The notes beneath the pieces were generated by a model. The model saw only the letters and a list, made by a program, of their open reading frames with translations. It made no database searches and had not been told where the DNA came from. Below, in pieces: positions 20,541 to 30,815 of a DNA stretch of 64,000 nt. The position numbers were made by a program, and so were the translations under genes. Every line of letters begins with the position of its first letter. Position 1 is the first letter of the stretch. The DNA is taken from assembly GCF_022809115.1 (NCBI RefSeq), contig NZ_JALGBH010000001.1, forward strand, positions 1,302,001-1,366,000, in the 5' to 3' direction. The DNA is from Pedobacter montanisoli. Lineage in GTDB: Bacteria; Bacteroidota; Bacteroidia; Sphingobacteriales; Sphingobacteriaceae.

Positions 20541-20614
20541 TCCCGAATAGCTCAGCTGGTTAGAGCATCTGACTGTTAATCAGAGGGTCGCTGGTTCGAG
20601 CCCAGCTTCGGGAG
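20541..20614 (+). tRNA. tRNA-Asn (GTT), copy 1
   Basis: 74-nt cloverleaf with acceptor stem TCCCGAA/TTCGGGA, D arm AGCTCAGCTGGTTAGAGC, anticodon loop CTGTTAAT (GTT) and T arm CTGGTTCGAGCCCAG. Discriminator G, CCA not encoded. Confidence 0.97.
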
Positions 20615-20615
20615 C

Positions 20616-20685: not shown

Positions 20686-20759
20686 TCCCGAATAGCTCAG
20701 CTGGTTAGAGCATCTGACTGTTAATCAGAGGGTCGCTGGTTCGAGCCCAGCTTCGGGAG
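20686..20759 (+). tRNA. tRNA-Asn (GTT), copy 2
   Basis: Identical over all 74 nt to the copy at 20541. It begins 71 bp downstream and is probably co-transcribed with it. Recent tandem duplication or gene conversion is likely. Confidence 0.97.
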
Positions 20760-20787
20760 CTGCTGGTCTGCATGTCTGCAGACAAAT

Positions 20788-24102: not shown

Positions 24103-25008
24103 TTATTTAGTTAAGACTGCTTTTTTGATGATTATATCCATGTAGGTTGGTAAATCAATTCCTTTTATTTCATAATCCTGTACACCCATTTTTTTCAACC
24201 AATCGCCCCAATATTTTTTAATCACATCCTCTTCAAAGTTTTTTCCTTTTTGTGGGTTAATACCAATAACCAAAACTTTAAGATCTTGTAATCCTGATGT
24301 AGCAGGTAAAAAACCTATTCTTTTACTTTCCATGTTATTGGCAAAGTCGGTGGTGTTTAATTTGAAATCTTTTATTAATTCTGGAGTGAGGTAAGAAGTC
24401 TGATTTTTTACTTTCAGCTTGTTGTCTTGGTGAAACATGTAACCGTCTGTAAGAATTACCAGTATATTACGATGATTAGATTTGATACATTGATCTTTAA
24501 CCTTATTCTTAAAAAATGTCCAGATATCAGCACCGATATATTTGTTTTCTTTTAACGCTATCTGATAGATCTTGTTAGAACATGAAACATATGTTGGTGT
24601 AACGCTTGATATTGCTTTTGGAGTGACGGTGGCTTTGTTAAATACAAACCTCATTTGTTTGGCCAAATCATTAATTTGAGCATCTTTTGGTTCAGGCTCA
24701 AAGAAAAGCTGAATTTGATCGTCCATACCACTAATTCTGCTATTGCTTAAATGTTCCTGAAAAGCTTCACCCAAACTTTTGATATACCCTAAGTCACGTT
24801 GGTAAATTTCCATCGTTTGGTTGGGGTATTTTTTGAGGTCTATCCGGTCTGATAAGTCTAAGAAGATACTTAGATTTAAATTTTTATCAGACTTCTTTTT
24901 TTGTGAATTAACTTTTTCATTAGCAGATGATGGCTCATTGCTTACACAACCAGTTTGAAACATGAAGATCGTGACCATCATGATTATTAATAAGTATAAC
25001 TTTTTCAT
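24103..25008 (-). CDS. vWA-like lipoprotein, third gene of the TerB-like operon
   Basis: 301 aa from ATG 25008 (MKKLYLLII), 1 bp after the stop of the upstream gene; the longer frame from 25035 would overlap that gene. A lipobox FQTGC places an acylated Cys at about 21. The mature part shows a von Willebrand A-like pattern: beta strand with FLDLSDRID and, later, NILVILTDGYMF. The first motif DxSD differs from the classic DxSxS metal site, so metal binding is uncertain. No close family is recognised. Its operon partners are a TerB-like protein and a coiled-coil membrane protein. Confidence 0.75.
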   Translation of the reverse strand: MKKLYLLIIMMVTIFMFQTGCVSNEPSSANEKVNSQKKKSDKNLNLSIFLDLSDRIDLKKYPNQTMEIYQRDLGYIKSLGEAFQEHLSNSRISGMDDQIQLFFEPEPKDAQINDLAKQMRFVFNKATVTPKAISSVTPTYVSCSNKIYQIALKENKYIGADIWTFFKNKVKDQCIKSNHRNILVILTDGYMFHQDNKLKVKNQTSYLTPELIKDFKLNTTDFANNMESKRIGFLPATSGLQDLKVLVIGINPQKGKNFEEDVIKKYWGDWLKKMGVQDYEIKGIDLPTYMDIIIKKAVLTK

Positions 25009-25009
25009 A

Positions 25010-26281
25010 TTAGGAAACTTTAGAATAAATAACATGTTGGTGTTTTGGCTTAATAAGATCCAAGCTTTCTAAATGCTCGTTAGCTACAGCTTCGCATTCT
25101 GCAAGAATTGAATTTTTTTTAGCCTCTGGCAATGCTAGTTCTGCATTGATAGCCTGAAACCACCCTTCTACATATTGGTTATGATAGTGGAGATATTGTT
25201 TTATATTGAGAATAAATCCGTCAATTTTATTTTGTAACACCTCAATTCTACCTTTGATTGTACTGATTAACTGTTTGGTATCTTCCATATCCTTTATAAT
25301 TTGTGAACGCGTATCGTTAAGTCTGTTCAGTTCTTGCTGTTTGTTTCGAATAAATGCTTTGATTTTATCAATATTTTCAAATTCCTTCATTACAAAATCA
25401 AATACTAAACCCCATATGATATAAACTACAAAACCTGCAAAGATGATCATCCAGAATTCTGCTTCTCCTATTGCTACTTTGAGGTTATATGGTGGCGTGG
25501 TAGGAGTTTTACTAAAATCATATATCTTCTTTTCAATCTGATAAGCCAAGAGCCCATCAAAAAGAAATGTTATTAGAAAAAGGGCAGCTAATCTGAAGAA
25601 ATTTTTAAGACCCTTTCCTTTTTGCATCATATGAATAATATAACCGAGGCCTAAGAATACAGTTGGAATGGTTAAAACCAGAACACCTTCCAGCCAACCT
25701 TCTCTCTTTGCATTGTTGAGGGCTTGTGCATCGAAAATGGCCGTACTTAAACTATCATCTGAAAATGTTTTAAAGAGTGCAGAATAGGTGGCAGAGATGT
25801 AAAAAACAAATAAGTAGATAGATATTGGAATTAATAGTAATAAACCAATATAAAATAAAGCATGAGGTTGTTTTGTATCTGTTACGCCATGTTTCTCGGG
25901 ATTACTTTTTACAGTTTCGATAGCTTGCTTAATTAGTTCTGCTTTCTGATCATTTTGCTCTAACTTATCTTGATGAATAGATAAAGCTGTTTCAGCATTT
26001 CTCAATTCGCTTTCCTGTCTGATCTTATCTTCAATATAAGGCTGCTTTAACTTTTGCTGCTCTTCTTTTAGTTTGCGACATTGTTCTTCAAAGCTGCTGT
26101 AAACATTTTGAAGGCATGCTTTTAAAGTAAGTGCTTGCCCAGAAGCTTTTTGGGAGGCACCATATCCACTCTGATAATATGTGATACGAACTTGAACCTC
26201 ATCATGATTTGATTCTGCATCTGAATTAACAGCTGGAATAGTTTGTTTCTTTAAGGAAAATATTTTGTTAATTGATTCCAT
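25010..26281 (-). CDS. Four-TM coiled-coil membrane protein of unknown function
   Basis: 423 aa, no family recognised. Residues 60-130 form a charged coiled coil (EEQCRKLKEEQQKLKQ). Four hydrophobic segments lie at about 140-168, 198-218, 228-248 and 275-298. A second coiled coil (300-360) and a globular tail complete it. No signal peptide, so both coiled coils are predicted to be cytoplasmic with an even number of TM helices. It is 2 bp from the TerB-like gene and 1 bp from the lipoprotein gene, which suggests tight co-translation and a shared membrane complex. Confidence 0.8.
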   Translation of the reverse strand: MESINKIFSLKKQTIPAVNSDAESNHDEVQVRITYYQSGYGASQKASGQALTLKACLQNVYSSFEEQCRKLKEEQQKLKQPYIEDKIRQESELRNAETALSIHQDKLEQNDQKAELIKQAIETVKSNPEKHGVTDTKQPHALFYIGLLLLIPISIYLFVFYISATYSALFKTFSDDSLSTAIFDAQALNNAKREGWLEGVLVLTIPTVFLGLGYIIHMMQKGKGLKNFFRLAALFLITFLFDGLLAYQIEKKIYDFSKTPTTPPYNLKVAIGEAEFWMIIFAGFVVYIIWGLVFDFVMKEFENIDKIKAFIRNKQQELNRLNDTRSQIIKDMEDTKQLISTIKGRIEVLQNKIDGFILNIKQYLHYHNQYVEGWFQAINAELALPEAKKNSILAECEAVANEHLESLDLIKPKHQHVIYSKVS

Positions 26282-26283
26282 AG

Positions 26284-26685
26284 TTATCCATTAATTTTAG
26301 TTAATACCTGTGAGAGTGTCATTTCTTGTTCTGCGCAGTTTAATAAGAAAGAACAAATACTGTCAATGTTGGTGTCTTCGAATTGAAAGCGACGGCAAAA
26401 TTTCTGTAAAGTATTGTATTCATCATCTGTTACTTCTTTATCTGCCCAAGTCATTACCGCTAAATCATAAAGGTATTCGACTCTTTCATCTCTTGTTTCG
26501 GGAATTGAAATCCTTGCAAGAGGATTTGTTAAAATTTTTTCAAGTTGGCTTGTTTCTACACCCCGTTGTTCAGCAAACAGATAAAGTTGTTTCATTTCAG
26601 GAGTGTCGAAATCTTCATCTGCACATGCCATTTGATAAAGCCTTAAGAAACGGCTTTGTAATGCAGCGGTAATCTGATTTTCCAT
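26284..26685 (-). CDS. TerB-like (tellurite-resistance family) helical protein
   Basis: 133 aa, all helical and acidic. Two related segments, MACADEDFDTPEMKQL and MTWADKEVTDDEYNTL, give the duplicated helix pattern with Asp/Glu clusters seen in TerB/TerB-like domains, which are linked to metal sensing. It leads the three-gene operon. The promoter 60-100 bp upstream carries an inverted repeat shared with the gene at 29895. TerB membership is judged from pattern only; a remote calcium-binding-like fold cannot be excluded. Confidence 0.68.
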   Translation of the reverse strand: MENQITAALQSRFLRLYQMACADEDFDTPEMKQLYLFAEQRGVETSQLEKILTNPLARISIPETRDERVEYLYDLAVMTWADKEVTDDEYNTLQKFCRRFQFEDTNIDSICSFLLNCAEQEMTLSQVLTKING

Positions 26686-26750
26686 TTTTTTGTTTGGATT
26701 TTAGCTTACGATTTAAAGTCGTATTGGTTTTTTAATAATTCTATTTTTAC

Positions 26751-26794
26751 CAAAACTAAAGCATACACATAAGCATTCTATACGGAAAACCGTA
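26751..26794 (-). promoter_or_regulatory. Promoter and activator-site candidate of the TerB-like operon
   Basis: The minus-strand -7 box TAGTTTTG (26758-26751) has no TTTG -33. In its place is the perfect repeat TACGG-AAAA-CCGTA (26781-26794), centred 29.5 bp upstream of the -7 box and so near -41 from the expected start point. That is a typical activator position. The twin site is at 29835-29848. Confidence 0.6.
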
Positions 26795-26879
26795 CCCTTA
26801 AAAAGACTAAAATGGAAGTGCTTGACTGACTTAATCCAGCAATTATATTTAATAGGAAAAGAAAATTTATAGCAGGATT

Positions 26880-27545
26880 TTAAATGATTCCCATATCCTT
26901 ACAAAAGGCTATCAACTGTTCATTTTTTTTGAAATTGAGCACTGTTTTGATATGATTTAAACGTTTTTCCATAGTGCTCATACCGCTTGGTGTAATGTTC
27001 ATTTCTTCAAGCTTTTTGGGGATTTCTTTGAGCAAAGCACCTTCTGCCAGGAGAGATAATATAGTAAGATCGTAAGAAGTAAATTTATGACTATTGCTTG
27101 GCCTGATTTTTTCGTTGATTGTTGGCGATATGTAGTTTTGTCCTTTGGCAACAGCTTTAACAGCTTGTTCTAATTCATAGGCATCAAGACGCCCTTTATG
27201 TACAAAGCCATTGATTTGTAAATCCTTAAAATAAGATTGTATTAGGGCAGGGCGGTCTTCTACTGAAAAAATAATGACTTTGAGTTGCGGACAGATTCTT
27301 CTAGCTTCTTGAATAAGATCTAAACCACTTTTTAACTTTTGCGTGCGATGATCTTCAACAAAAGAAATATCCGTAATCAATAATTCATAAGGCTCATGGG
27401 TTTCCAGTTCTTTTTTGATTCTTGTTAAGCCATCATCACAGTAATAGACATAGTGGCAAACAGGTATCTGTAAATCTATAACCGTCTTGGCAACAGCTCT
27501 GCTGCTCATCTGATGATCTTCTGCAACGAGTACTTTTTCAAACAT
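26880..27545 (-). CDS. LuxR-type response regulator
   Basis: 221 aa. Receiver domain with the acidic pair ED (about 9-10), the phospho-acceptor Asp in LLITDISF (about 60) and the Lys in GFVHKGRL. The C-terminal helix-turn-helix domain (LTILSLLAEGALLKEIPKKL... STMEKRLNHIKTVL) is LuxR/FixJ-like but divergent. It is 8 bp from the histidine kinase gene and lies directly before the TerB-like operon, whose promoter carries a palindromic site it could bind. Confidence 0.9.
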   Translation of the reverse strand: MFEKVLVAEDHQMSSRAVAKTVIDLQIPVCHYVYYCDDGLTRIKKELETHEPYELLITDISFVEDHRTQKLKSGLDLIQEARRICPQLKVIIFSVEDRPALIQSYFKDLQINGFVHKGRLDAYELEQAVKAVAKGQNYISPTINEKIRPSNSHKFTSYDLTILSLLAEGALLKEIPKKLEEMNITPSGMSTMEKRLNHIKTVLNFKKNEQLIAFCKDMGII

Positions 27546-27553
27546 AATCTAAA

Positions 27554-29242
27554 TTAGCTTAATGGAATGAGAACCTTAACTTTAAGTCCGCCACTCTCAT
27601 GATTTTCAAAAGTAAATACTCCTTTTAAACTTGTGATACGGGTTTCCGTATTGCGTAAACCCGTGCCCTCGACAGGATTTTTATGAATGCCAATTCCATT
27701 ATCGCGGTAATTTATTTCCAGGTTTTTACTTTGTAATACAAAACGTAATACTACATGGCTGGCCTGGCTATGTTTAGTCATGTTAACCAATAACTCCTGT
27801 AAGACTAGAAAGATTTCATCTTTAACAGACTCACTTATTTTATTGATACTTTCGTCTAATCCAACCGTAACAATTTTCCTTTCAGTATTTGAGAATGAAG
27901 AAATCAATCCGGTTAAACGCTCTAGATAATCATCAGGTTTAGCTACTACGGCATGAGAGATATCTCGTGATTTATGATAAAGATCTTCCATTTGTCCAAC
28001 CAACTGTTCTTTATTAATCTCATCTCCATATTCAACGTCTGACATCATGCGATACAGGCCATTAGCTACTACATCATGAATTTCTTTAGATACTTTTAAT
28101 TTATTTTCCCGAATAGATTTTTCTGCCTGTTCTGCCAACCGTTGTTTGCGTTTTCGGTAAAAAATAACGCCACCAATTACAGTAACTACTGCAATTAAAA
28201 TTGCTATCCATAAAGCTGTAGTTTTACGAGCTATTTCATATTTTTTTTGGATATTTTCTTTTTCCAATCGTACTTTCTCTGATTTATGCTTTTCAGTTTC
28301 ATACTTTATCAGAGCAAACTGATTTTTAGCAGCATTTCGTATGCTATATAAGCTATCATCTAATTGTCTATAACGTTTAAAATAAATCAATCTTTTTTGT
28401 GCATCTAATTCAATCAGTTTTCTTAAGGCCTCCAGTTCATTATCTGGATTTCCTAATATTAAGGCTAGTTTGTACATTAATCTGCTATAGTATAAAGCAG
28501 AGTCGGGTTTTGTTTTAAGGTAATAATCTGATAAATGAGAGTAGCTGGAGTTCACACCCCATTGGTTCCCAATTCGTTTACGAATGGCTAGAGCTATTAA
28601 ATAACTGGGAACAGGGTTAAAGTTGGGTTGTTGCAACCATTGTGCATTCGCGAGATTAGTGAGTACTTTGGCCTTGGTTTCATCTTTTGGGTTTCTTACC
28701 AGAATTTCTTGATAAAGCTTAATGGCAGGTGCATAATTTCCTTCTTCTCTATATGCATTTGCAATGTTGTTTTTTGCTGTATGTAGGTTTGAGCTATCTT
28801 TAATTAGGGGCAGAGATTGTGAATAAAAGTCGATAGACTCTTTATATTTCTTAAGATCATAGGATGCGACTCCTAGGTTATTTAAATTAGAAATAATGAA
28901 AGGATGATGCTCCTTATTTTTCTTGTTCAAAAAATTTAGCGCCTCTATGCTTAATTCCTGTCCATCAAAACTATCTCCAGATTCAGTAGCAATGATCGCC
29001 ATATAGGTTAATGAACTAGCAATCCTAAAACTATCTCTCTTTTTAAGATAGATGTCTTTAACTTCATTAAAAACCTTAAATGCACTATCTGTCTTTTTTG
29101 AATCAAATAACAGGTATGCTTTTTCAGTTAATGGATGGGGCTTAGATAAGTTGGGCTTTTCTTTGGGGCTTTTCTTTTCTGGAGAGCAGGCTAGTAATAA
29201 TAAGCCAACTAAGAATAAAAAATATGTTAAGATGCGTCTCAA
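27554..29242 (-). CDS. TPR-containing lipoprotein-type sensor histidine kinase
   Basis: 562 aa. The N-terminus has a lipobox LLLLACS (Cys19), so the long periplasmic TPR region (about 40-310) may be lipid-anchored at its front. A coiled coil leads to a TM helix (about 343-363, ALWIAILIAVVTVIGGVIFY). The cytoplasmic part is of the NarL/DesK class: SKEIHDVVANGLYRMM with the phospho-His and a HATPase domain with ELLVNMTKHS, YRDNGIGI and GTGLRNTETRI. It is paired with the response regulator downstream. The combination of lipid anchor and TM helix is unusual. Confidence 0.9.
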   Translation of the reverse strand: MRRILTYFLFLVGLLLLACSPEKKSPKEKPNLSKPHPLTEKAYLLFDSKKTDSAFKVFNEVKDIYLKKRDSFRIASSLTYMAIIATESGDSFDGQELSIEALNFLNKKNKEHHPFIISNLNNLGVASYDLKKYKESIDFYSQSLPLIKDSSNLHTAKNNIANAYREEGNYAPAIKLYQEILVRNPKDETKAKVLTNLANAQWLQQPNFNPVPSYLIALAIRKRIGNQWGVNSSYSHLSDYYLKTKPDSALYYSRLMYKLALILGNPDNELEALRKLIELDAQKRLIYFKRYRQLDDSLYSIRNAAKNQFALIKYETEKHKSEKVRLEKENIQKKYEIARKTTALWIAILIAVVTVIGGVIFYRKRKQRLAEQAEKSIRENKLKVSKEIHDVVANGLYRMMSDVEYGDEINKEQLVGQMEDLYHKSRDISHAVVAKPDDYLERLTGLISSFSNTERKIVTVGLDESINKISESVKDEIFLVLQELLVNMTKHSQASHVVLRFVLQSKNLEINYRDNGIGIHKNPVEGTGLRNTETRITSLKGVFTFENHESGGLKVKVLIPLS

Positions 29243-29299
29243 TGTTTTTGTTTTTGCCTAAAATAAGAAAAAACAATGCATTAATTTAAATTAAGCCGC

Positions 29300-29337
29300 T
29301 ATATAAAAACCGGGTGCAACTTATAGCGCACCCGGTT
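29300..29337 (-). terminator. Terminator of the small secreted-protein gene
   Basis: Perfect 10-bp stem AACCGGGTGC / GCACCCGGTT (29308-29317 and 29328-29337). On the minus strand it is followed by TTTATAT. It separates the small gene from the kinase gene. Confidence 0.85.
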
Positions 29338-29349
29338 AGTAAAAAATAA

Positions 29350-29547
29350 TTATGGTCTTGGTGGTGGAATTTGACCATTATCGCCATTGTGACCTCCACT
29401 TTTTCCGTCACCGTCGGTTCCGTCATCTTCTGATGGAGGCGGTGTATCATTAGTGGTAGCTACTGAACTAGAACCATGATGGTTTCTGCAAGAATTTTGT
29501 AAAGGGGATGCCAATCCCAATAAAATGGCAATTATTAATGGTAACAT
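29350..29547 (-). CDS. Small secreted or lipidated protein, unknown function
   Basis: 65 aa. A hydrophobic N-terminus (LPLIIAILLGLASP) with a Cys at 20 is followed by a low-complexity tail rich in Gly, Asp, Asn and Pro (PPPSEDDGTDGDG, ending QIPPPRP). The strong terminator 12 bp downstream shows that the region is a real transcript end. No homologue is recognised. It lies between the kinase gene and the candidate structured RNA. Confidence 0.55.
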   Translation of the reverse strand: MLPLIIAILLGLASPLQNSCRNHHGSSSVATTNDTPPPSEDDGTDGDGKSGGHNGDNGQIPPPRP

Positions 29548-29574
29548 AATTTTAGAAATAATTTTTGCTTAATG

Positions 29575-29755
29575 GCAGGGCGTACCGAACCCTATCGGTA
29601 GCTTGCTGCAGTTTTAAGCGGCGCCGCTTTGTTGGGAAGGTTTTTGAGCAGCTTGAGCGGAAAGATTTGTTTGCTTCCCAGGTCAACCAAATTTTTCTGC
29701 TTGTTACTGCTCGGGTGATTTCTTAGGTTCGGGTAATACATATACCCTCGCTTCA
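29575..29755. ncRNA. Candidate structured RNA, strand uncertain
   Basis: GC-richer island inside a 347-bp gap. Long-range pairing closes the region: TACCGAACCCTA (29583-29594) with TAGGTTCGGGTA (29724-29735), 11 pairs with two bulges. Inside, AAGCG/CGCTT forms a small hairpin (29616-29629, part of a 14-bp palindrome) and TGGGAAG (29633-29639) pairs with CTTCCCA (29674-29680). The rod shape recalls 6S-type RNA, but I cannot match it to a family. It could also be the leader of the small gene at 29350-29547. Confidence 0.35.
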
Positions 29756-29834
29756 GATTTCGAAAACAAAATTGTGATGTGTTAAGCGCTTGACTGGTAA
29801 GTGGTTCCGATGGTGTTAATATTTCCGATAGGAA

Positions 29835-29878
29835 TCCGGAAAACCGTAATAAAATCTTTATATTCCGGAGTATTTTCG
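29835..29878 (+). promoter_or_regulatory. Promoter and activator-site candidate of the 29895 gene
   Basis: TCCGG-AAAA-CCGTA (29835-29848) shares 12 consecutive bases with the site before the TerB-like operon. It is centred 29.5 bp upstream of the -7-like TATTTTCG (29871-29878, one mismatch). The spacing is identical in the two promoters. The ATG follows at 29895. Confidence 0.55.
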
Positions 29879-29894
29879 TTCAAAACCCTATTTT

Positions 29895-30815
29895 ATGTTT
29901 TCAACTTATAAGCAAGTTGTCTTGCAAACTTATCTCAGAAAGAAAGCTGCAGGATCTTTGTCATTTCGGTTGCTGGAACCTACTCCTGCAGGTATAAAAG
30001 AAGAATTAACTCAATATTTGAATGAAAGATTTGATCCTAAAAAAGATGAACAAACACTGGAGCTTTTTTTTGGTCATCATGAGAGTGCAGCGGCTTATGC
30101 AAAAGTTGTAAGGAGAGTTGAGATTGATAAGTTTAGACCAGTGATTAAATTCTTAAAAGGACTAACGGATAACCCTGATGATAAGCAGGTACATCTTGCT
30201 GCTTTATTGATAGACTTTAGAGAAAGACCTTATGAATTTGGGAAAGAGTATAGTTTGGAAGAGGAAAATGATCCGATAGCAGAAAATGAAGAGAATATTG
30301 AATCTAAGGATGGAGATCCAGAGGTAGAGGAAACAGACGGAAAGAATCCAGTTAAGGAGCCTGAAGAAATGGGAGAGAATGAGGATATTAAGGTCAGAAG
30401 ACCGTTTTTTTTAAAGACCATTAACAAAAAGAAATCTGTATTCACTTTGCTTCTAGTGTTGCTTTTTGGTTCCTTAGGATTTGTTGTTAGTCATTTAACT
30501 GATGACAAAATTACTGGTAAACAATGTATGTACTGGAAAGGAGATCATTATGAAGCAATAGAGTGTGACATTAAGTTAGCTGCTGATATTGACAAAATTG
30601 CATTGGATACATTCTTATTGAAGAATTTTAAAAAAATTACAAGAGTAGATACAATAACAGAAAGATCAATAGGAAAGATTTGGTACCTGAAACACCAAAA
30701 ATCTTTTGATTTTTTTACTGCCAAAGGTGTTCATCCTATTCACAAAAGAAAACTAAGTCGTTTAAGTAAAATCATCTATGATAATGAAATAAAACCTTTG
30801 AAAACAGCAGAATAA
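29895..30815 (+). CDS. Single-TM protein with acidic linker, unknown function
   Basis: 306 aa. A cytoplasmic helical domain (about 1-115) precedes an Asp/Glu-rich linker (120-165), a TM helix (181-199) and a C-terminal outside domain with paired Cys in QCMYWKGDHYEAIECD. I do not recognise a family. The absence of a signal peptide gives an N-in, C-out topology. The promoter shares a regulatory site with the TerB-like operon, so this protein probably belongs to the same response. Confidence 0.78.
   Translation: MFSTYKQVVLQTYLRKKAAGSLSFRLLEPTPAGIKEELTQYLNERFDPKKDEQTLELFFGHHESAAAYAKVVRRVEIDKFRPVIKFLKGLTDNPDDKQVHLAALLIDFRERPYEFGKEYSLEEENDPIAENEENIESKDGDPEVEETDGKNPVKEPEEMGENEDIKVRRPFFLKTINKKKSVFTLLLVLLFGSLGFVVSHLTDDKITGKQCMYWKGDHYEAIECDIKLAADIDKIALDTFLLKNFKKITRVDTITERSIGKIWYLKHQKSFDFFTAKGVHPIHKRKLSRLSKIIYDNEIKPLKTAE

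Follow-up and report, generated by a model that had tools for sequence, protein, structure and literature searches.

How is a cluster that encodes a TerB-like protein, a coiled-coil membrane protein and a vWA-like lipoprotein controlled, and against what might it be directed? The question is raised by positions 24103 to 30815 of the window, as we call the whole 64,000-nt stretch of Pedobacter montanisoli DNA that was analysed (C1:1302001-1366000, in a genome of 3.29 Mb). A preliminary description made from the sequence had seen in these three genes a possible stress module with Ter-like partners, and had left its role open between phage defence and metal or envelope stress. We favour the reading, at a probability of about 55%, that a sensor kinase with tetratricopeptide repeats (TPRs) and its response regulator switch on the TerB/coiled-coil/vWA operon via a dedicated operator, and that the products may act as a complex against invading DNA or envelope damage. 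The earlier interpretation is thereby upheld in part: the three-gene set is real, as are the TerB similarity, the vWA fold and the shared promoter site, but the module is larger than stated and, strictly taken, does not count as a Ter system. Judged from its sequence relatives, it extends beyond three genes and usually comes with swappable cargo.

The minus strand carries, from 29547 down to 24103, genes for a small secreted or lipoprotein-like product of 65 amino acids (aa; 29350..29547), a TPR sensor histidine kinase with a TTG start (27554..29242, 562 aa), a response regulator (26880..27545, 221 aa), a TerB-like protein without transmembrane (TM) segment or signal (26284..26685, 133 aa), a coiled-coil inner-membrane protein with four predicted TM segments (25010..26281, 423 aa) and a vWA-fold lipoprotein (24103..25008, 301 aa). 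Divergent from the kinase gene, with the small lipoprotein-like gene between them, a plus-strand gene (29895..30815) encodes a 306-aa TM protein that consists of an N-terminal part, one TM segment (residues 181-199) and a C-terminal domain predicted to be periplasmic. The closest named relatives of the module proteins are those of Pedobacter. The kinase has TPRs, one TM segment (343-361), an H-box (EIHD, from residue 387) and an HATPase_c domain (29.8 bits over a cut-off of 26.4). The receiver domain of the regulator scores just below its cut-off (27.2 against 30.2 bits) and holds the receiver aspartate, D59; no Pfam helix-turn-helix match was obtained for this protein, which overall is RcsB/UhpA/NarL-like. 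With H-box, HATPase and receiver aspartate all present, the pair is a two-component system of the HisKA_3/NarL type. We also noted a lipobox-like N-terminus (LLLACS) in the kinase, whose TPR sensor may be lipid-anchored besides being membrane-spanning; to our knowledge a lipid anchor on a histidine kinase is unusual.

The TerB similarity holds, at 24.2 bits against a Pfam cut-off of 24.4, and 33 of 36 relatives of the protein match Pfam TerB at E<=0.01. When all six frames of the own genome were searched for TerB at E<=1e-3, no match came up, and for that reason the match in the window is counted as weak. The vWA assignment of the lipoprotein rests on structure: fold comparison places a Rossmann-like vWA fold on the 301-aa protein. 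A Pfam sequence search with the lipoprotein and 29 relatives was tried and returned no vWA family, the fold alone making the domain visible; a Rho_RNA_bind match in 21 of these 30 sequences looks spurious. The protein is a predicted lipoprotein with an invariant C21. Whereas the canonical vWA MIDAS motif is D-x-S-x-S, the corresponding motif here is D-x-S-x-R, with D51-L-S53-D-R55 invariant in 60/60 vWA proteins. DLSDRI (51-56) and TDGY (187-190) are invariant stretches, the former unchanged across eight aligned vWA proteins of which five come from distant loci that lack TerB. The coiled-coil protein has no known family or fold match; Foldseek returned mainly long-helix matches, none at E<=1e-3, and PDB sequences searched with profiles of all three families gave nothing convincing. 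No family in Pfam, NCBIfam, PADLOC or PHROGs convincingly covers the membrane protein or the lipoprotein, in keeping with the earlier remark that this three-gene form was not known, and the own genome holds no second copy of the four-TM gene. It is likely that the three proteins form a trans-envelope complex.

Could the trio be a novel offshoot of the classical Ter stress system, one with TerB and vWA and a different membrane part? TerB and vWA are both Ter parts, and PMC7824862 describes Ter as a combination of signal synthesis, ligand binding by TerB/TerD, TM components and a sub-membrane vWA, preventing entry of phage or xenobiotics. The Ter system (terZABCDEF, TelA) thus resembles the module in its TerB-like, membrane and vWA proteins, and has been reported together with phage inhibition and xenobiotic or metal resistance. 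Yet TerD (PF02342) has no match in the own genome (as a control, the profile does match in 2 of 14 genomes), the vWA domain sits on a predicted lipoprotein and not on a cytoplasmic protein of TerF/TerY type, its MIDAS-like motif is altered, the membrane protein belongs to no known family, and the locus has its own two-component system and operator. TerC and TelA had no match among the nine neighbouring proteins scanned, no genome-wide search having been made for them. We regard a Ter branch as unlikely.

To what extent do these genes belong together? Loci were collected with the membrane-protein profile; 83 candidates were confirmed and 80 kept, mostly from Flavobacteriaceae, with Pedobacter, Olivibacter, Kaistella, Halpernia and one Chlorobiota bin besides. 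TerB and vWA genes stand beside the membrane-protein gene in 80/80 loci, at median gaps of 3 and 4 bp; as the membrane protein was the search query, it is these neighbours that are informative. The kinase, regulator and TM genes accompany the trio in 71/80 loci. Among the nine exceptions, L064, L071 and L078 are short of upstream sequence and L074 was lost in clustering; in L006 the set lies downstream, and in L002, L026, L046 and L052 one or both of kinase and regulator are missing from their place. The TM gene at 29895, first described as an orphan, is instead a standing member (75/80 loci), while close relatives of the 65-aa small lipoprotein occur in 6/80 and a different small secreted family (c10) in 25. 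An even sample of 296 genomes of the phylum agrees: vWA was found in 18, the coiled-coil protein in 18 and both in 17, adjacent in 17/17, so that the proposed co-occurrence in other genomes holds here as well. A close TerB gene adjoins the pair in 13 of the 17; the TerB profile matched in 36/296 genomes overall, TerB-like genes elsewhere included. In the vWA-only genome (G261) a diverged coiled-coil gene does adjoin vWA, and the coiled-coil-only genome (G041) has a weak 71-residue piece with a stop. The module is patchy, present in about 6% of the phylum sample and in 2/3 sampled genomes of its own genus. The distant vWA profile, run at class level around G145 (98 genomes), found only G145 and one weak broken place; run on the phylum, it found 22/395 genomes, among them weak pieces in G299 and G372 and the full TerB trio in G337 and G354.

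A candidate switch lies in the DNA between and within these genes. The palindrome TACGG-N4-CCGTA precedes the TerB operon and recurs in the kinase gene, and TCCGG-N4-CCGTA, a degenerate copy, precedes the TM gene. Each is accompanied by a -7 box. The predicted TerB-operon promoter (26751..26794, minus strand) has its operator at 26781-26794 and TAGTTTTG at 26751-26758; the predicted regulator-gene promoter within the kinase coding sequence (27607..27650, minus strand) has its operator at 27637-27650 and TACTTTTG at 27607-27614; both are free of mismatches. The predicted TM-gene promoter (29835..29878, plus strand), with operator at 29835-29848 and TATTTTCG at 29871-29878, has two mismatches and keeps the 22-nt spacing. 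The kinase/regulator pair, linked to the trio in the preliminary description, is thus now joined to it by a predicted operator, and the promoter site proposed to be shared with the TM gene is retained in this degenerate copy. Strict palindromes number 139 in 0.81 Mb of module sequence (69/80 loci), 20 in 0.80 Mb of flanks and 1 in dinucleotide-shuffled module sequence. Of 534 relaxed operator matches on both strands, 194 have the Bacteroidota -7 box TAnnTTTG beginning exactly 22 nt downstream, as against 1 in the shuffle, and 20 have it at 21 nt. Class II activators bind centred near -41.5. According to PMC9723704, the F. psychrophilum sigma-A -7 box spans -12 to -5; with the box so placed, the operator would cover -48 to -35, centred at -41.5, and the layout would by position be that of a class II activator.

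The complete element was also counted across the intervals between genes. The 81 loci (window included) provided 73 regulator-TerB and 70 TM-kinase intervals, the rest having no such pair in range; 62/73 regulator-TerB intervals hold the element, against 0 with the backward motif and 0 in 20 shuffles each. When at least 8 of 10 operator bases were required and the -7 box was not, sites were counted in 72/74 and 59/70 intervals, compared with 15.6 and 8.4 in mononucleotide shuffles. The element is kept in two unlinked loci, L002, where the locus has no kinase, and L006, where the pair lies about 7 kb downstream of TerB. In eight whole genomes (~33 Mb), TTACGG-N4-CCGTAA occurs at 14 places, 12 of them in the 21-kb module locus, and the backward pattern at 3; seven of the eight (all but that of L001) had been picked for showing the exact site, so only its scarcity elsewhere is informative. 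The regulatory anatomy of the locus, as read here, is very probably correct.

Does the copy inside the kinase gene do anything? Its operator covers the codons of NTETRI in the window kinase, a region that we take to be the G2-box and that reads N-[T/M/A/V]-[E/G]-x-R-I near the C-terminus across kinases; the -7 box covers codons around [I/F/L]-T-F, and 61 nt separate the element from the regulator ATG. An accident of G2-box codons that drives nothing, with only the intergenic copies real, would be an alternative, and in its favour the DNA is constrained by a peptide kept for catalysis. For 75 kinases assigned to the module locus (window included), synonymous codons were drawn from each gene's own usage. 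The -7 box alone, present in 70/75, was already expected in 28, as the accident would have it, whereas operator (>=8/10) and -7 box together were present in 68/75 against 5.2 expected, a contrast that is not a probability, given that the kinases share ancestry. Shared descent alone does not explain why, of 426 codon columns, the six with most excess codon identity all fall within window residues 531-544 and so lead the whole kinase gene. T, M, A or V at the second residue each preserve most of the palindrome. For the Muricauda/Cellulophaga-like clade the right half-site does not agree with the operator of the clade itself, which suits the accident; overall we judge the accident improbable. Extra kinase copies often have a weaker site (6 and 7 of 10 bases in L035 and L017), and those of L010 and L031 keep 9 of 10 operator bases. 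In Salmonella, the rcsB promoter sits in the rcsD coding region. The likeness, as reported in a reference cited in PMC3762810, is a regulator gene with a separate promoter; the difference is that here the regulon's own operator would belong to the regulator promoter and is conserved over many genera. A promoter in the catalytic codons of a kinase would be a well-conserved overlapping protein/promoter code, and a useful case in which to study how the dose of a regulator is set by the regulator itself.

Within the 3.29-Mb genome, perfect full elements number three (the TerB promoter, the kinase-internal copy and one just downstream of a paralogous regulator on C2) and one-mismatch elements three (before a small lipoprotein gene, before an SH3/Cys-rich protein gene and in the paralogous kinase); four of these six best copies belong to the module or the paralogous set. 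One of the single-mismatch copies, C1:340418-340461, precedes a 70-aa small lipoprotein, and another, C1:883730-883773, precedes the SH3/Cys-rich protein, whose family (cluster c22) is cargo in other genomes. Some cargo of the compact window version, we infer, is kept dispersed elsewhere under an identical operator. These two genes behind a one-mismatch full element (L114:7202-7414 and L116:3223-3750) are unlinked and encode small secreted proteins; one has a GPQGGCFYFNSNGNKTYVDR stretch, presumably similar to the PBCV basic adaptor, and the other is SH3/Cys-rich. The paralogous C2 locus (L115:5961-9746) is a second set of TM gene, small lipoprotein, TPR kinase and regulator, and its kinase also holds the internal element with one mismatch. 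Downstream of its regulator, L115:9820-10003 (C2:1492819-1493002) carries the perfect operator and -7 box, then some 120 nt with no listed open reading frame (ORF) of at least 55 aa, then a hairpin-T terminator-like sequence; this region is a candidate small RNA or lost cargo gene.

In other genomes cargo lies in the module itself. Extra same-strand ORFs of at least 60 aa stand between regulator and TerB in 67 of 71 loci with the upstream pair (mean 2.8 per locus over 81 loci), and more follow vWA; these ORFs were called by a simple longest-ORF scheme, so small spurious ones are counted among them. The interval is compact in L001, L003, L008 and L076, and the window has no cargo upstream or downstream. 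The family scan covered 124 of 145 cluster representatives, with downstream genes limited to the first three. Among the 25 of 39 Pfam families listed, SNase leads with 9, followed by YidD (7), DUF4236 (6), DUF1508 (5), SH3_3 (5), Excalibur (4), HSDR_N (3) and then ion channels, DUF3892, EEP nuclease and others; against PADLOC (25 of 42 matches listed), an SNase model was hit 9 times, and Cas1/Cas2 models were hit by neighbours in Cellulophaga loci. Just downstream of the module in one such locus (L066:12545-13749), Pfam identifies Cas1 and Cas2 genes, and in L070, also Cellulophaga, both are seen by eye at the matching place.

Secreted-looking SNase, EEP nuclease and Excalibur proteins, along with cargo proteins that we take to be PBCV-adaptor-like, also invite the thought of a regulon for DNA uptake or use of extracellular DNA, in which the TPR kinase would sense DNA or its breakdown products and induce secreted nucleases and an envelope-spanning machine. 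A DprA gene 0.8 kb from a distant membrane/vWA pair in L153 points the same way, but DprA occurs in a single distant locus, the window, L001 and L003 have no cargo between regulator and TerB, and no competence gene is among the 25 of 39 cargo families listed, no search having been aimed at competence genes. This reading we consider the least probable of those weighed here.

The case for an anti-invader role comes from elsewhere. Six relatives of the membrane/vWA pair that lack TerB and kinase were read (L153, L154, L155, L156, L157 and L162). In L155, Pfam places Card1 0.4 kb from the pair, followed by Cas_NE0113, RT-Cas1 and Cas6; a Cas2-like gene near the same pair (L155:5108-14982) was noted by eye only. 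Csx3 lies 2.8 kb from the pair in L156, and an AriA/NsnB-like ATPase 2.3 kb from it in L154. In L162, an uncultivated viral contig, the pair, its identity confirmed by profile, follows a retron-type reverse transcriptase (RT) and a DpdF-like helicase. The apparent operon at L162:731-10747 reads retron-type RT, a 241-aa protein, a 1455-aa DpdF-like helicase, a 273-aa protein, the membrane-protein relative, a 127-aa protein and the vWA relative, and looks like an undescribed defence cassette. Taken together, the neighbours, all within 3 kb of the pair, suggest that the membrane/vWA unit serves as a chassis in anti-invader settings and that TerB plus the two-component system is one driver. PMC10910872 reports vWA systems with TM partners adjoining CRISPR loci, found by a clustering study; the CRISPR-associated vWA/TM systems of its UAS list resemble distant relatives described here that are likewise at CRISPR loci. 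From the vWA-MoxR-VMAP ternary conflict systems the module differs in that no MoxR-type AAA+ ATPase was found among the nine window proteins scanned, the other loci not having been searched. A term search of the main text of a type III effector paper (PMC11229360) found no mention of vWA.

A pure envelope-stress response, in which antimicrobial peptide, metal or osmotic damage is sensed and repaired and invaders play no part, must be weighed against this. Prediction places the sensor domain and several of the products beyond the inner membrane, some cargo is of SH3, YidD or ion-channel type, and PMC12054061 reports that classical ter genes respond to Zn and Mn. By NCBIfam the pair resembles two envelope-stress proteins, LiaS (kinase) and RcsB (regulator), yet the likeness is family-wide and far below the curated cut-offs, and it is the distant coiled-coil/vWA pairs that lie near CRISPR and RT genes while part of the cargo is nuclease-like. 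The LiaFSR and Rcs-type regulons share with the module a LiaS/UhpB-like kinase and an RcsB/NarL-like regulator; here, however, the system has a periplasmic TPR sensor, a divergent TM partner, a dedicated, mostly one-locus regulon and a predicted regulator promoter in the kinase catalytic codons. Envelope stress without an anti-invader role is possible, though doubtful. Of the roles originally left open, phage defence is favoured, short of proof, by the CRISPR and RT neighbours, and positive evidence for metal or envelope stress is absent here; an anti-invader role or a general protection of the envelope is more likely than metal stress.

Under the kinase-switched complex that we prefer, a signal would reach the periplasmic TPR domain, perhaps via the small lipoprotein or the outer domain of the TM protein. 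The phosphorylated regulator would then bind at -41.5 and recruit RNA polymerase as a class II activator, and the operator copy in the kinase gene would raise the dose of the regulator apart from that of the kinase (positive feedback). Cytoplasmic TerB may dock on the coiled coils of the four-TM protein, which would span the inner membrane and offer its conserved outer loops to the vWA lipoprotein. In most relatives the same switch would also turn on small, nuclease-rich cargo.

Several observations weigh against this reading. The defence link stands on six distant loci, none of which has TerB, kinase or operator; L157 has none of the CRISPR, RT, DprA or ATPase neighbours, and the DprA of L153 is a housekeeping-type gene. 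PADLOC gave only weak matches for four window proteins, the best being PDC-S48 for TerB at 23 bits. No match to the module was found in phages, one weak partial match (25.8%) was found in plasmids, and no close relative in viral contigs, unlike a typical mobile defence cassette; with no tRNA abutting the module either, a mobile-element reading was set aside. The structure model of the coiled-coil protein is weak overall (pTM 0.45). As to the switch, 11/73 regulator-TerB intervals are without the strict element, which upstream of the TM gene is present in 12/70 (relaxed, 37/70), and 56 of the 139 strict module sites fall inside called genes. Homologous loci share descent, and locus counts are accordingly not independent. 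The C1:340418 element would yield a leaderless transcript. Apart from the copy before the TM gene, two-mismatch elements occur at five genomic places without explanation; these five we treat as background and not as regulon. When up to three mismatches are allowed, the counts for the pattern (27 and 25) do not exceed those for its backward control (36 and 28), so that weight attaches only to the top of the list.

The anti-invader purpose is the least certain step, and we hold it tentatively, at somewhat less than even odds. A broader picture, more speculative still, would be an inducible innate-immunity chassis of Bacteroidota, with a membrane/vWA core, exchangeable sensors (type III CRISPR, retron-type RT/helicase, TPR two-component/TerB) and swappable nuclease cargo under one dedicated operator, the G2-box codons of the kinase doubling as the regulator promoter. 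If the anti-invader purpose is true, a defence-type chassis would be common to CRISPR, RT and two-component settings. Apart from that purpose, the analysis adds a conserved module, two unnamed protein families and a testable operator that predicts a regulon in carrier genomes; no description of the module was found in the open-licence literature, and we call it undescribed within that scope. Elsewhere in the window, and not adjoining the module, two tandem tRNA-Asn(GTT) genes lie at 20541-20615 and 20686-20760.

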